DNA of 38,984 bases, from IMG/VR virus record IMGVR_UViG_3300039186_000245, positions 1-38,984 of that record; one strand, written 5' to 3'. Below, one piece after another: positions 116-29,652 of this stretch. Source of the stretch: a virus. Under the pieces are notes generated by a model that saw only the letters and a list, made by a program, of their open reading frames with translations, was not told where the DNA came from and searched no databases. Each line of letters starts with the position of its first letter. The first letter of the stretch is position 1. The position numbers and the translations under genes are program-made.

Positions 116-400
116 TCAGACTACATGAATATTTTTATCTATTATTGCAGTTATATCGTTTTCACGTAAACTAAATACAGTATTACCATCATATTTAAAT
201 TCAGTACCTGCCAAATCATGAAAAAGAACCTTTATACCTATTTGGTATTCTTTATCTTCTACACCATCACCTACACCAATGATCATTCCTGAATATGGTG
301 GCGCATACATACCGTCTTGTTTGACTAAAAGTATACTACCTTTTCTATCTGGTTGTTCGTCCTTTTTTAAAAATATTCTATTCCCTAGAGGTTTTAACAT
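116..400 (-). CDS. GroES-like co-chaperonin (T4 gp31-type role)
   Basis: A 94-aa protein with the Cpn10 pattern along its whole length. It opens with LKPLGNRIFLKK (residues 2-13), equivalent to the family's conserved start. A short mobile loop follows at about 14-33, holding the hydrophobic tripeptide I23-L24-L25 where GroES carries the residues that dock on GroEL. Next come SGMIIGVGDG (37-46), IGIKVLFHDLAGTEF (54-68) and the closing LRENDITAIID (78-88). GroES homologues are about 95-100 aa and T4 gp31 is 111, so length fits. The expected role is to replace or supplement host GroES as the lid of host GroEL, typically for capsid protein folding. The leader is A-rich with no Shine-Dalgarno. The roof-hairpin region looks simple. 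Family assignment is confident; substrate and partner are inferred. Confidence 0.88.
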   Translation of the reverse strand: MLKPLGNRIFLKKDEQPDRKGSILLVKQDGMYAPPYSGMIIGVGDGVEDKEYQIGIKVLFHDLAGTEFKYDGNTVFSLRENDITAIIDKNIHVV

Positions 401-5624: not shown

Positions 5625-8201
5625 TTAAAAGTTATCATTCGGCGACTGTGATACTGGGTAGCCACCATTTAGGGTTATCCATTCATCGTAATAACCACTC
5701 GCAGTAGACATTATAGTCCAACCTCGCTGTACTTCAGTTGTAATAATTGTTGCGCTAGTGTTAAATGGATCTTGTTTATTCATGCCCTGTTGTCGCAGGA
5801 TCCCGCCGTCCCATATCATATGATAAGTAGTTTCTCTTAATTCACCACGAACCGCAGGCACTGCATTTGATGTATCTCCTGTATCATATAAACGATAATT
5901 ACTGGTACTTCCTGTTAATGGGTAAGTATATGGTGTTGAGCCATACCAGCTATTCCATGCACCTGTACCATAATTAGTTGCCCTACGTCGTGTTACTGGT
6001 ATTTTAATTCTAATACGTCCATAGTTAGTTCTAAGATCGTAGATGGAAGGACCAACTCTCCCAGCTGATTGGAAGTGTAATACTTTAAGAATCAACTGCT
6101 GCCCAGGATATGAGCCTGTTGGGAAGTTGAAAACATGATTATATTGCCTTGTCGTTGTTATTGTAGAATTACCAGTAGGTATACCTGGGCCATAACCTAA
6201 TGTTATAAAGGGAACATTCAAATCATCAGTAGTAGGCATTCCTGATATTGCATTAGGCCCTACCGATTGGTTAGTGTTCCAACCATAACTTACATAGTTA
6301 GCTGTTGGGCCATTACCACTAATAGGTGCAATATTAAGAGGACTCATATTTTTTGTACTATTTAACCCGTGATCTCTTTTATGTACTAGAGGTACTGCTA
6401 ATCCTAATTTCCCTCTCCCTAACGTGATGTATTCGTTTGCACCTGGTGTTGTGCCATTTTGCACATCCCTAACAGTAAACTCTAAAGTATTATCATCAGG
6501 ACCACCGTACGGTGAACTGAAACTATTACCACGTGAAGTATCCCACCCAGCTGTACTTTCATTACCCATGACAATACCAATAGATCCACCCGGTAGTGTT
6601 GTAGCATTAGCACCTGCTGTATATTGTCTATACCAAGTACTAGGTAGCATTGAACCAAAATCAAAGGATCCTACTCGTTCTAATATATTGTATGGTACTA
6701 ATAAAGATCCTGTTGGATTAATAATATGCCCTACTGTTGCATCAGGTATATTGATTAAAGGCTGCCCGGTCGCATATGTTGTTGTTTGCCAACCAACATT
6801 CTGTATCTGTGGATAATTACCTGAACCGTTAAGGTAATCTAATTGTATCATAGGATTACTTGCGACATTGTCAATGTTATACAGCTTAATACTAGAATTT
6901 GATCCTATCAGCAATTTACCAACTTCGGATTTCTGTTGTATTTCAACGTTACCACCAGCAACACCCGTTGCATCTTGTGATATTGCAATTGCACCACCAG
7001 CACTTGATAATGATATATTACCAGTCTGTGTTGTTAATGCAATACTACCTAGTAGCGAACCTGGTATACTACCAACATTCGTTTTTAAATTTATATCACC
7101 ACCTGAAGTAACCGCGAATGTATCTGATGCAACAAAGCTTGTTAAACCTGACAACACTTGAAATCTTCCAACGTTGGTGACTTGGCCAGTATTAGATAAA
7201 TCAATAATACTTCCACCAGACTCAATTGTCGTAGTAGCAGATGCACCTAATGTAGATACTTTAAATTTATTAGTTTGTGTTTCGCCAGTCCCAACTTGTA
7301 TCTCAAAATTTGAATTCTGACCATTCCAATGCTCGTCTTGGTTTGATCCAGTAGAGAAACTAATGGCACGCCCTGCTTCATAGCTTTGTGAACGTTTATC
7401 AGTAAGAACTTGATATCCTATTAAATTTTCTTGTGAGATTGGTGTAGTTGGACTCTTTGGGCTTCTTACAACTAATCTATCATCAATACTTAGATGTATA
7501 TTGCTTAAGTTTCCAAAAGTCGATTGTTCATACTTGTCACCTGCATTGACCCCTCCACCGTGAAATGTTATCGAAGTTCCAGCCTGGTCTTTTTGGTGTA
7601 AAAATAGAGATGTGATGTCTGATGCTATAAACCCTGCTATTGGGCCAGGTACAATATATGCAGCTGTTAGCGGTATGAGCGGGTTTACCGCTATAGCGTC
7701 AGGTGGCACTCCCCCTATTAAAATAGAGGCTACACCTTCATTATCAGTATTGGCACCTCCACTAACTGATGGATCATATCCAAATGGTTGGTTGTATCTG
7801 GTGTTTTCACCTTGCAGATAATTGGGATGCCCAAAAGCTCCACCGAATCCTCCGCTTTGTCCAGCTGGGCCAATTGGCCCCATTAAATCTACATTACCTT
7901 GAAGCCAATTAGTTCCATCATATTCCCATACGTCACCTGCAAAATCTAAGTAAAAATCACCAGATAATAAATTAGGTGATACTATAATACTATTAGGATC
8001 TGTTACTGTTGTATTTGGGTCATCATACCATGTGCTTCCTTTTGGTCCCCTGCCACCAGCAGGACCAGTTGGACCAGGACCACCTATAGGGCCAGCCGGA
8101 CCACCACCGTTAAGCATCAGCTGGTCAAAATTAAAGTTAGTCTTATCGACGAGTTGTGAAATAGTATCCGATGCTATTATTTCTTGTATAGTGATTGGCA
8201 T
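5625..8201 (-). CDS. Collagen-like tail fibre protein, 858 aa
   Basis: The N-terminus MPITIQEIIASDTIS shares a pattern with the 216-aa protein encoded at 19955-19305 (I-[TS]-I-x-E-I-[IL]-x-[ST]-D-[TS]-[IL]-S, then NFN near 22-25), probably a common docking peptide. A short collagen-like stretch follows (about 32-57, GPAGPIGGPGPTGPAGGRG then PKG), with a second patch near 108-118 (GPIGPAGQSGG). Between them is a compact segment reading WEYDGTNWLQG. The remaining 700 residues are beta-rich, Ser/Thr/Gly/Asn-rich and repetitive, with TGNISLSSAGGAIAIS-type strands suggesting a beta-helix around 350-430. The end is aromatic. I see no chaperone or peptidase domain. Likely a trimeric adsorption fibre. 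Confidence 0.75.
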   Translation of the reverse strand: MPITIQEIIASDTISQLVDKTNFNFDQLMLNGGGPAGPIGGPGPTGPAGGRGPKGSTWYDDPNTTVTDPNSIIVSPNLLSGDFYLDFAGDVWEYDGTNWLQGNVDLMGPIGPAGQSGGFGGAFGHPNYLQGENTRYNQPFGYDPSVSGGANTDNEGVASILIGGVPPDAIAVNPLIPLTAAYIVPGPIAGFIASDITSLFLHQKDQAGTSITFHGGGVNAGDKYEQSTFGNLSNIHLSIDDRLVVRSPKSPTTPISQENLIGYQVLTDKRSQSYEAGRAISFSTGSNQDEHWNGQNSNFEIQVGTGETQTNKFKVSTLGASATTTIESGGSIIDLSNTGQVTNVGRFQVLSGLTSFVASDTFAVTSGGDINLKTNVGSIPGSLLGSIALTTQTGNISLSSAGGAIAISQDATGVAGGNVEIQQKSEVGKLLIGSNSSIKLYNIDNVASNPMIQLDYLNGSGNYPQIQNVGWQTTTYATGQPLINIPDATVGHIINPTGSLLVPYNILERVGSFDFGSMLPSTWYRQYTAGANATTLPGGSIGIVMGNESTAGWDTSRGNSFSSPYGGPDDNTLEFTVRDVQNGTTPGANEYITLGRGKLGLAVPLVHKRDHGLNSTKNMSPLNIAPISGNGPTANYVSYGWNTNQSVGPNAISGMPTTDDLNVPFITLGYGPGIPTGNSTITTTRQYNHVFNFPTGSYPGQQLILKVLHFQSAGRVGPSIYDLRTNYGRIRIKIPVTRRRATNYGTGAWNSWYGSTPYTYPLTGSTSNYRLYDTGDTSNAVPAVRGELRETTYHMIWDGGILRQQGMNKQDPFNTSATIITTEVQRGWTIMSTASGYYDEWITLNGGYPVSQSPNDNF

Positions 8202-26687: not shown

Positions 26688-27980
26688 TTATATTTTTTCT
26701 ATTTCAATAATTTCAGTATTCTCAAATCTTGCAAGCTTCGTTGCTCTACCTTTTCTAAATATACCACCGTTCATCTCTCCACTAAAAACACCTCTTATAC
26801 CAAAAACGTATGAATCTTTAACTCCAACATTTTTGCTTACATATGAATCTTCTAATTTAGAATCAACAACATCAGTTGCTCCAAACAAATTACACTCCAT
26901 CATTGAAGAATTAATTAGCTCTGTACTAAATATATCACAACCAATAATATTACCTTGAATTTTAGAATCAACAATATCAATGCCTCGTATTTCAAAACAT
27001 TTCATAAGTTCTGCATTTTTTAGTTGCATCCTACCAGTATCAGAATCATAATTAATCAAACCTTCAGTAAGACCTGCTTTGGTTAATAGTTCAAATACTT
27101 TCTCTCTCATTTTCGGGAAGTAAGTTTCGACTATTTGGTCATAGGTTTGTAAATCAACCATTAATTTGACTTTAGGAAAATTTCTTTTAAATGTTCGGTA
27201 TGCTTTATAAGATTCTACAATACCTTTATGCTTTTCTAATATAACATCTAATTTTTTAATATCTTCTGCATTATAGACAGGATCAACTAAACTTTCGTAC
27301 AAAGATATGACAAAATGTTCTGTCATATTCATTATAGTGTTATATTTTTTTTCATAATCTTTACCACCTAGATATCTAAATTCAATATAGTTCTGTGGTA
27401 TTTTAGAAAAGTTTACTCCATAGTATTTCTCAGACACAAACATATAGTTCTTCCATGAAATTCTCTCAGGAGACGGTTGTGTCATTCCACTTAATGGTAC
27501 AATAAATTTTATAGATTTAGCATAAACAGAATCCTTTCTATCAGGGAACGCTTCATATACTGCATTTTCATTGAAGTTAAGAACGAACTTACCAATATCT
27601 AAAGATGATACATTAGTAGGGGTTCCTAATTTCTTACCATCAAATGCAATATTAACATGAATAGAACAACGGTCATTAGTAGATCCGTTTTCTCTAATCC
27701 ACTTTAGAGTTTTTGCAATGATTAACTTTGATTCGACAAAGGGCATTGGGCCTGTTACTAATTCGATCATCCCAGATCCACCAGAATTATCCGGCTCTAG
27801 TTTAAAGATTTCATCGCTGGGTGTAAAGTCACTGTGGGCTTTATCCTCAACTCGTATTTGTTTATTTAGAGTTTGGGAAAGGCTTCGTTTAACTTCATCC
27901 ATTCCCTCATTGGCAAAGAATTCAAATTCTAAACCAATCTTTGATGCATATATAGCATTTAGCTGTTCGTTAGTGTACAT
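26688..27980 (-). CDS. Amidoligase-like enzyme (glutamine-synthetase fold) fused to pentapeptide-like repeats
   Basis: A 430-aa protein in two parts. The N-terminal 300 residues carry the ordered motifs of the GS-fold COOH-NH2 ligase (amidoligase) family: IGLEFEFF at 15-22, with the G-x-E-x-E acidic pair E18/E20 for metal-ATP; SGMIELVTGPMPF at 69-81 (E73); CSIHVNIAF at 105-113 with H108; and NYIEFRYLGG at 197-206 with E200 and R202. From about 320 to 410 comes a run of short, regularly spaced hydrophobic repeats (KCFEIRGIDIVDSKIQGN, then CDIFSTELINSSMMECNLFG) typical of a pentapeptide-type right-handed beta-helix. GS-fold amidoligases join carboxyl and amino groups in peptides or small molecules. 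The substrate here is unknown; a virion protein, host protein or cell-wall peptide are possible. It has its own promoter-like motif. Confidence 0.65.
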   Translation of the reverse strand: MYTNEQLNAIYASKIGLEFEFFANEGMDEVKRSLSQTLNKQIRVEDKAHSDFTPSDEIFKLEPDNSGGSGMIELVTGPMPFVESKLIIAKTLKWIRENGSTNDRCSIHVNIAFDGKKLGTPTNVSSLDIGKFVLNFNENAVYEAFPDRKDSVYAKSIKFIVPLSGMTQPSPERISWKNYMFVSEKYYGVNFSKIPQNYIEFRYLGGKDYEKKYNTIMNMTEHFVISLYESLVDPVYNAEDIKKLDVILEKHKGIVESYKAYRTFKRNFPKVKLMVDLQTYDQIVETYFPKMREKVFELLTKAGLTEGLINYDSDTGRMQLKNAELMKCFEIRGIDIVDSKIQGNIIGCDIFSTELINSSMMECNLFGATDVVDSKLEDSYVSKNVGVKDSYVFGIRGVFSGEMNGGIFRKGRATKLARFENTEIIEIEKI

Positions 27981-27996
27981 GTATTTCCTGATTTGT

Positions 27997-28006
27997 TTAT
28001 ATATTC
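27997..28006 (-). promoter_or_regulatory. Candidate late promoter for the amidoligase-like gene
   Basis: The minus strand reads GAATATATAAACAAATC, core at 28005-27997, 16 nt before the ATG at 27980 and downstream of the S1-like gene's stop at 28023. Confidence 0.6.
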
Positions 28007-28022
28007 TAAACCAGGATTGCGG

Positions 28023-29162
28023 TTATGCCACGTTCATAGTAATCTTACGATCACTAACATTAACACTACCAATTTTAACATCGATAACATCGCCCTTGGT
28101 CAAGTTAGCAGTTTTTAGTTTAGATTTGTGGATTAAACCACTAATTCCTTTTTCTAGTTCGACGAATGCACCATACGAAGTTATCTTAGTAACTGTACCT
28201 TCAACAATCATCATAGGTTTATATTTTTCATCTATCCCATCCCATAGATCAACTTTAGGACCTAACTGACTTAATATAATCTTCTTATCTGAAATAATTT
28301 CTTTAGCCCAGAATTCTATTTCATCACCAGCTTTAATATCCCTGTTATCTAATTGCTCTTTCATCTTATCAGTTAATTCAGCTCTAGGAATTAAACCAGT
28401 TAAACAATCATCAAACTGAGCAAATACACCAAACTTAGTTGTACCTGTTACAAAACCAGTTCTAGCTTCTTTTATGTTTTCATCTAATTCATGAATCCTA
28501 GTAGGTATCATTGTTCTTAGATATTCTCTGTGAGATACTACGATAGTAGATTTGTCTTGTGAGTATGTAATAGGCATTACAATAATTTCTTTACCTACTA
28601 AAGAATTAAAGTCATGTAATTTGTTTAAGCCACCTAGTGATCCTGGCATGAAGCAATTAATACCTGCAACATCTACCCAATAACCACCATGTATAAGTTC
28701 CTTAACAACGGCAGTAAAACCAACCGTTTTGTTACCTATAGCATCCTTAATTTCTTTTAACTTAATATCCATCAACGCGTCGTTAATAGAGGCTATAACC
28801 TCACCAGTCTTTGTCGTTTTGATTTTAACATCAATTTCCATTCCTACTTGCATCTGTTCAACAATATACTCAGGTTCTTTTGTTAGAATACAGCTTGCAG
28901 TATATTTAGAATTAGTATCGATAGTTGCTCTTGTTCTATCAGGAGAAATATAAGTAATTTCGCCAGATGTAGTGTAAGATACATTATCTTCTGTTAATTG
29001 AGTTTTTTGTATAGCAGAATCTGAAAGTTCATACATTGCTAAACAATCAGCAGCATAAGATTCAGTACTCATTAGTTTTGTCCCTTTGGGAACTAATACT
29101 TTCATTACTTTAGTATCAAATGGATCATCACTTAATTGAATTGTGATTTCTTGCTCTATCAT
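28023..29162 (-). CDS. Ribosomal protein S1-like protein with four S1 domains
   Basis: A 379-aa protein. After a 60-residue non-S1 start there are four S1 (OB-fold) repeats at about 62-128, 143-215, 232-300 and 317-378. The second is the clearest match to bacterial S1 domain 2: ELIHGGYWVDVAGINCFMPG (155-174), then LVGKEIIVMPI and IVVSHREYL (207-215), the hallmark that closes that domain in S1. Repeats three and four have the RNA-binding S1 pattern (TKFGVFAQF and GLIPRAEL; SYGAFVELEKGISGLIHKSK). Cellular S1 usually has four to six repeats; the first two bind the ribosome and later ones bind mRNA. This protein thus keeps both kinds and could recruit phage mRNAs, which here lack Shine-Dalgarno sites. 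It lies between spike and wedge genes with its own promoter-like motif. Function is inferred. Confidence 0.88.
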   Translation of the reverse strand: MIEQEITIQLSDDPFDTKVMKVLVPKGTKLMSTESYAADCLAMYELSDSAIQKTQLTEDNVSYTTSGEITYISPDRTRATIDTNSKYTASCILTKEPEYIVEQMQVGMEIDVKIKTTKTGEVIASINDALMDIKLKEIKDAIGNKTVGFTAVVKELIHGGYWVDVAGINCFMPGSLGGLNKLHDFNSLVGKEIIVMPITYSQDKSTIVVSHREYLRTMIPTRIHELDENIKEARTGFVTGTTKFGVFAQFDDCLTGLIPRAELTDKMKEQLDNRDIKAGDEIEFWAKEIISDKKIILSQLGPKVDLWDGIDEKYKPMMIVEGTVTKITSYGAFVELEKGISGLIHKSKLKTANLTKGDVIDVKIGSVNVSDRKITMNVA

Positions 29163-29192
29163 CTTTTTTATTTTTAAAGGTTGTTAACTGTA

Positions 29193-29202
29193 TTATATAT
29201 TA
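29193..29202 (-). promoter_or_regulatory. Candidate late promoter for the S1-like gene
   Basis: The minus strand reads TAATATATAATACAG, core at 29201-29193, 30 nt before the ATG at 29162. This is the longest leader among the eight closely placed copies, and it lies in a 108-bp gap. Confidence 0.55.
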
Positions 29203-29270
29203 GGTATCTACTGGATGTATTTATTATTGTACACACCACTTATAGATTTGTTTCATTATTAAATTAAGTA

Positions 29271-29642: not shown

Positions 29643-29652
29643 TTATATATTA
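29643..29652 (-). promoter_or_regulatory. Candidate late promoter for the 117-aa gene
   Basis: The minus strand reads TAATATATAAACTATAAAC, core at 29651-29643, 18 nt before the ATG at 29624. Its leading TAA (29652-29650) is the stop codon of the spike gene, the same overlap as at 1690-1681. Confidence 0.6.

Follow-up and report, generated by a model that had tools for sequence, protein, structure and literature searches.

Genes for ribosomal protein S1 in huge phages have been published and linked to a lack of Shine-Dalgarno (SD) sequences (Al-Shayeb et al., 2020, PMC7162821). That account treats S1 generally, with "up to six S1 domains", and its main-text passages on S1, supplements aside, contain neither a docking analysis nor a bS1+bS21 pairing. 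Phage bS21, a small-subunit initiation protein encoded in the structural-gene region of Bacteroidetes phages, has been described as expressed late and proposed to redirect translation (Chen et al., 2022, PMC9723584). Mizuno et al. (2019, PMC6375957), another account of phage-encoded bS21, mentioned bS1 and, in the relevant passages, excluded the S1 domain as functionally ambiguous. In the cyanophage PhiMa05, bS1 is likewise phage-encoded, among several ribosomal proteins, and lies near Vampirovibrio bS1, i.e., is host-derived according to its authors (PMC13157829). Two members of the family described below are already in databases, where they are annotated only: Foldseek against BFVD matched, each over the whole length, A0A7S9STL2 of Virus NIOZ-UU157 ("S1 motif domain-containing protein"; 76% identity) and A0A8D9CG03 of an uncultured marine phage ("30S ribosomal protein S1"; 29% identity). 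Given that huge-phage S1 has already been published, this kind of gene is known. In the main texts of the openly accessible papers covered, we found nothing on phage S1 docking residues or on bS1 and bS21 occurring as a pair within a single group of Bacteroidota phages.

Here we analysed an S1 gene in a window of 38,984 nucleotides, positions 1 to 38,984 of IMG/VR virus record IMGVR_UViG_3300039186_000245. The original prediction, made from the letters alone, was of a phage-encoded S1 homologue whose second domain helps to dock it on the ribosome and which could replace or compete with host S1 and steer translation to phage mRNAs. Its S1 type, domain layout and gene context stood, its view of the gene as rare did not, and the docking role that it gave to domain 2 had to be refined.

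A bS1-type gene among baseplate genes

The features on which the argument draws are the following.

26688..27980, minus strand: constant downstream neighbour of S1, 430 aa
28023..29162, minus strand: phage bS1-like gene, D1-D2-D3-D4, 379 aa
28026..28232, minus strand: S1 repeat 4, D4-type, residues 311-379, with Y330, F333 and H345
28254..28496, minus strand: S1 repeat 3, RNA-binding type, residues 223-303
28515..28742, minus strand: S1 repeat 2, D2-type, residues 141-216, with Y161/F171
28779..28976, minus strand: S1 repeat 1, D1-type, residues 63-128, with D82 and K86
29025..29069, minus strand: candidate uS2-docking helix, ESYAxxxLxMY, residues 32-46, from conservation, the structural model and chained profile alignments
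29073..29162, minus strand: phage-specific N-terminal segment, residues 1-30, MIEQEITI...DPFDTK...VPKGTK, a predicted beta-hairpin
29163..29270, minus strand: A-rich intergenic leader of 108 nt, without SD-like sequence before the start
29193..29201, minus strand: promoter-like motif AATATATAA, 30 nt before the S1 start codon
29271..30510, minus strand: upstream genes for a 117-aa protein and a baseplate hub-type protein (PHROG baseplate)

The open reading frame at 28023-29162 has exactly these bounds and lies on the minus strand, a detail absent from the original prediction, as do all window genes counted (32/32). Pfam S1 (PF00575) matched the 379-aa protein at E 4.2e-21, with two stretches passing singly, and matched 19/19 aligned relatives. 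In NCBIfam, bS1 models came out on top (IspH/S1 fusion, 142.3 bits; rpsA-type, 131.7 and 126.7 bits) and led PNPase (36.7 bits) and RNase R (32.8 bits), which matched in the S1 part only, by about 100 bits. An exoribonuclease-type S1 (PNPase, RNase R) is ruled out by these scores which, together with the domain profiles below, bear out a ribosomal-type protein. Each listed full bS1 model missed its cut-off by hundreds of bits (for the curated equivalogs, 142.3 against 624 and, for rpsA, 126.7 against 577), and we therefore file the protein as a phage bS1 homologue, not as an rpsA equivalog. The best PDB matches were bS1 proteins, some of them 30S-bound: a sequence search placed E. coli bS1 first, over residues 103-374, and with the family profile the E. 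coli bS1 match spanned profile positions 51-382.

Profiles for each of the six bS1 domains, built from ten bacterial proteins, assigned repeat 2 (141-216) to D2 at 35.6 bits, while other domain profiles reached at most 2.3 bits there; GGYWV, FMPGS and VVSHREYL, by which domain 2 had been recognised in the prediction, are literally present. Repeat 4 (311-379) scored 38.8 bits with D4 and 37.4 bits with D5, and repeat 3 (about 223-303) fit loosely (D5, 18.1; D6, 16.7; D4, 11.1 bits), in keeping with the two further RNA-binding-type repeats expected after a docking-type first half. Repeat 1 (about 63-128) reached just 1.5 bits with D1 in the window protein, but D1 scores 8.2 to 39.1 bits in four relatives (L023 and, clearly, L046, 39.1; L036, 20.8; L043, 15.1). 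The claim of an S1 homologue with four repeats, which follow the bS1 order, is therefore correct, the first repeat being recognised mainly through the relatives. Domain profiles detected no fifth or sixth S1 repeat, and the protein ends after D4; a natural short form, of 381 aa, is known from Listeria S1.

Residues 1-30 are conserved among relatives (M..EQEITI, DPF, P.GTK) and are predicted by AlphaFold2 to form a beta-hairpin with strands at 2-9 and 17-24. No such segment was seen in the bacterial bS1s that we fetched and aligned. A profile of residues 1-48, run against 13,770 ORFs, gave 123 matches, all to S1 ORFs (99 recognised by motif filter, 24 by eye), and none to non-S1 ORFs; reuse of the segment in other phage proteins is thus excluded among these ORFs (0 of 13,770).

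The neighbours of S1 are baseplate genes according to PHROG, and their order is stable. A homologue of the gene at 26688-27980, whose product matched no Pfam family, was the next gene after S1 in 80/82 loci, and a homologue of the gene at 29650 or 29271 was the nearest upstream match in 78/82, the misses being contig ends and L130; LR756500 also keeps the window gene order around S1. Relatives of the baseplate wedge gene occur mainly in Bacteroidota phages (of Prevotella, Tenacibaculum, Chryseobacterium and Flavobacterium), and also in Sphingomonas and Rhizobium phages. From these matches and the leader composition, the host phylum is probably Bacteroidota. Among annotated phage records, the listed Tenacibaculum, Flavobacterium, Chryseobacterium and Sphingomonas phages gave no S1 match. 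Elsewhere in the window, a phage GroES co-chaperonin is encoded at 116-400 (minus strand; PHROG 3188, E 6e-11; Pfam Cpn10, E 1.3e-11), and an 858-aa protein at 5625-8201 (minus strand), whose translation shows collagen-like GPxGP stretches close to the N-terminus, is probably a tail fibre.

Family, selection and candidate docking residues

A first IMG/VR scan gave 40 loci at 52-96% identity, and a profile scan gave at least 534 relatives among 600 candidate stretches, a count that may include cellular S1s and from which 80 loci were carried forward. Annotated phage records yielded 36 matches, including LR756500 (462 kb, 45%) and Lak phages. A DNA pattern for MIEQEITI had 40 matches, mostly in contigs already listed; its match in the 169-kb contig L176 was rejected as a chance match. 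The expectation that a multi-domain phage S1 is rare fails against these numerous IMG/VR relatives and the published huge-phage S1s (PMC7162821). Among genome contigs, relatives are encoded on 2/40 candidate stretches, L130 (Erysipelotrichaceae MAG contig) and L131 (Clostridium MAG contig, Lak-like). Their S1 genes are of phage type, and the two apparently are phage contigs that had been binned with bacteria.

The profile search and tree that the prediction called for, run with bacterial S1s, gave a bS1-type protein on a separate phage branch. A tree built from D2-D4 (37 rows, 239 columns) separated 21 phage rows from 16 bacterial rows at 100/100, with long branches (Fusobacterium, Pusillibacter and some phage rows) that call for caution. 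The bacterial rows comprised 15/16 fetched plasmid-collection loci (of 63 matching records) and PDB 9zcd_A, the Stammera row having been dropped for its broken reading frame. No phage S1 fell inside the cellular bS1 branch, as sampled with 16 bacterial S1s, and the split indicates either long-ago acquisition by phages or fast evolution. Recent capture from a host is ruled out by the same 100/100 split, in a tree with only 16 bacterial S1s. Values of dN/dS were 0.064, 0.127 and 0.137 for three unsaturated pairs and 0.06-0.21 for six other pairs, in which dS was above 1. The S1 gene is under strong selection, and its stable neighbourhood, the hundreds of candidate IMG/VR relatives and the 45% homologue in the 462-kb LR756500 speak for its age.

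In E. coli, bS1 is anchored by its N-terminal helix, where Phe5 and Phe9 stack on uS2 Phe32, and by Lys43, which enters the uS2 zinc pocket (PMC4288201, PMC10123108). An Asp39 bridge is described in PMC4288201 but was not seen in the account of these contacts in PMC10123108. The prediction had made domain 2 the docking part; a true D2 is indeed present, but the literature places docking more on the helix and D1, and candidates for both occur here. We counted conservation over 62 distinct family proteins longer than 300 aa, leaving out the truncated L040. In the candidate helix, Y36 is present in 62/62 and Y44 in 61/62; K86, in the E. coli K43 column, is present in 62/62 and D82, in the D39 column, in 59/62. 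The equivalents of the D2 pocket residues F120/F130 are Y161 (61/62, with one X) and F171 (62/62), and the counterpart of E. coli Lys117 is H158 (58/62). The RNA-binding-type residues Y330, F333, H345, F244 and F247 of D3-D4 are each found in all 62 (62/62). The candidate 30S-docking determinants, i.e., the helix Tyr pair, the Lys43 equivalent and the D2 aromatic pair, are near-invariant and, as candidates read from sequence, new here.

MAFFT lined up the candidate helix with the helices of E. coli and Bacteroidota bS1. Profile alignments linked the family from residue 31 to the S1s of huge phages, which in turn aligned through the helix with Bacteroidota bS1. Given that direct profile alignments start at residue 63 (Bacteroidota bS1) and 51 (proteobacterial bS1), the helix correspondence to cellular bS1 is indirect, and the Tyr spacing (Y36-Y44) is 8 versus 4 for E. 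coli F5/F9. An AlphaFold2 model of the phage S1 (pLDDT 81, pTM 0.53) was superposed by VIA-align, residues 36-215 on residues 3-174 of bS1 in a 30S pre-initiation complex (Z 13.9, rmsd 4.4, 168 residues), and this model may echo the known bS1 arrangement from training. The Lak S1s (L048/L049) end after D3, carry an insert in the region of D1 and have no counterpart of Lys43, but keep the helix as ESYAxxLxxxY; they are a divergent form that, from these features, would fit the docking scheme in part.

Start signals and co-encoded bS21

The motif AATATATAA occurs in 10 copies in the window, 10/10 of them on the coding strand, compared with a mean of 3.4 and a maximum of 8 on both strands of the shuffled window. 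Nine of the 10 copies lie at most 80 nt upstream of a start: eight end 13-30 nt before the start codon and one 67 nt before it, and the tenth has no nearby start. The sites include 27997-28005, 29193-29201 and 29643-29651, and with one mismatch allowed there are 57 coding-strand sites, 14 of which are within 60 nt of a start. AATATATAA is probably a phage late promoter element, and the predicted place of S1 among baseplate genes that have a promoter-like motif in common was confirmed by PHROG and by these 10 copies. It is only from this neighbourhood and this motif that we infer late timing of S1.

Translation in Bacteroidota generally initiates without SD pairing. SD-like tetramers precede 2/32 window genes, and A stands at -3 in 19/32, at -11 in 24/32 and at -12 in 21/32, with an overall A content of 36%. 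In Bacteroidia, adenines at -3, -6, -12 and -13 are reported as start determinants, and bS1 raised initiation on one SD-less Flavobacterium mRNA, with rpsU little affected (PMC9976891). D4 of bS1 has been placed near mRNA positions -12 to -15, in work that offers recognition of A-rich motifs by bS1 as a hypothesis (PMC6847099); a four-domain S1 ending at D4 fits this placement.

The co-encoding of bS1 and bS21 in relatives is new here. bS21 (PF01165) scored above cut-off in 13/20 records, i.e., in 9/13 IMG/VR fragments of 61-84 kb and 4/7 huge-phage genomes, several of the fragments being near copies and hence not independent. In the IMG/VR fragments, the bS21 gene shares the strand of S1 and is found some 19-36 kb upstream of it. 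Given that two of the four fragments lacking bS21 are too short upstream, 9/11 informative fragments carry it, and 2/11 reach far enough upstream and are without it. bS21 was not found in the window, which extends just 9.8 kb upstream of S1. In E. coli, bS21 bridges bS1 D1 to 16S rRNA, according to a paper that also describes the D2 pocket (PMC10123108). Autoregulation of host rpsU often works through an SD of exceptional strength (PMC9976891). The phage bS21 genes lack such an SD: AGGA, GGAG and GAGG are absent from the 20 nt before the start in 8/8 genes read. Exact AATATATAA precedes 2/8 phage bS21 genes, with near variants at others. In the eight bS21 regions (L200-L207, IMG/VR contigs), a AATATATA-like element often stands just before the bS21 start, and tRNA genes lie near bS21 in 6/8.

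Proposed role and relation to known systems

We favour, with moderate confidence, a role in which the phage bS1 docks on uS2 and aids initiation on SD-less, A-rich phage mRNAs late in infection. A phage promoter would drive S1 expression late, along with that of the baseplate proteins, as motif and position suggest. The helix (about residues 32-46) and D1, with K86 in the zinc pocket, could anchor it on host uS2, where it might take the place of host bS1 or sit on 30S subunits that have lost bS1. D2 would then be at the mRNA exit, and D3-D4 may grip the A-rich sequence that precedes phage start codons, a grip that, by analogy with published E. coli and Flavobacterium work, would replace SD pairing. 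The N-terminal hairpin might, speculatively, help the protein to bind the host platform more tightly or more specifically. In relatives, the co-encoded phage bS21, a direct bS1 partner on this platform, would presumably contribute, and given this co-encoding we propose that the phage can re-dress the host 30S mRNA-binding platform. A bolder version, possible but tentative, is that a matched bS1+bS21 pair makes phage-specialised Bacteroidota ribosomes, which favour SD-less, A-rich late messages and escape host bS21 autoregulation, with the hairpin as an added grip.

That the phage S1 is instead an extraribosomal RNA-binding factor, which coats or protects transcripts or serves RNA processing or transcription with no 30S docking, seems unlikely to us. 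Extraribosomal S1 roles are known, such as RegB activation and Qbeta replicase (PMC13157829, PMC9409239), the huge-phage authors wrote "on or off the ribosome" (PMC7162821), and D3-D4, the RNA-binding part, is well conserved; yet an RNA chaperone acting off the ribosome could do without uS2-contact residues, candidates for which are near-invariant in this family. RegB was found in 0/20 records by a search that matched no control genome either. We judge it quite improbable that the protein is a dominant-negative decoy, a truncated S1 that occupies uS2, blocks host S1 and shuts off host mRNAs, phage mRNAs being largely independent of S1. The missing D5-D6 of six-domain bS1s and the reportedly loose binding of host bS1 (PMC9976891) would suit such a decoy, but RNA-binding residues of D3-D4 kept in 62/62 would be superfluous in a mere plug, and short S1 proteins like that of Listeria occur naturally. 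A virion or tail-assembly protein, whose S1 repeats would serve the baseplate as OB-fold modules or be packaged with it, is very improbable: although S1 has a fixed position among baseplate genes and phage bS21 has been suggested to be packaged (PMC9723584), S1 matches no PHROG structural family, its repeats retain RNA- and ribosome-contact residues and not just the fold, and in four phages of 634-735 kb the homologue lies about 109-235 kb from the baseplate wedge gene.

The favoured role, initiation on the host 30S subunit, sets the phage protein beside cellular bS1 (rpsA) of Bacteroidota and Proteobacteria, with which it has in common the D1-D2-D3-D4 order, the D2 signature and equivalents of Lys43 and the aromatic residues; by indirect alignment, it may also have a counterpart of the anchoring helix. 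Unlike cellular bS1, it is without D5-D6, has an extra N-terminal segment and forms a separate 100/100 branch at about 25% identity. As with the published S1 of huge phages, homologous genes occur in huge-phage genomes and SD sequences are few, here in the window; the homologue of LR756500.1 (462 kb) has 45% identity, a similar N-terminal segment and a matching neighbour order. We take the LR records to be genomes from the 2020 study of Al-Shayeb et al. Unlike the PhiMa05 bS1, the present family shows no closeness to the sampled bacteria. S1 brings mRNA to the ribosome, and a shortened S1 of its own, with the likely anchoring parts retained, could let a phage favour its own messages late in infection. 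That bS1 recognises A-rich sequence ahead of the start is a hypothesis in published work (PMC6847099), and a compact four-domain bS1, strongly selected in phages of probable Bacteroidota hosts and with bS21 co-encoded in relatives, is a natural tool for testing it. The complete genomes of Chen et al., as described in the relevant passages, carried no other ribosomal protein genes beside bS21 (PMC9723584), whereas in the present relatives bS1 and bS21 occur together; if the proposed role is true, phage ribosome remodelling would go beyond a single exchangeable protein and take in two that touch each other.
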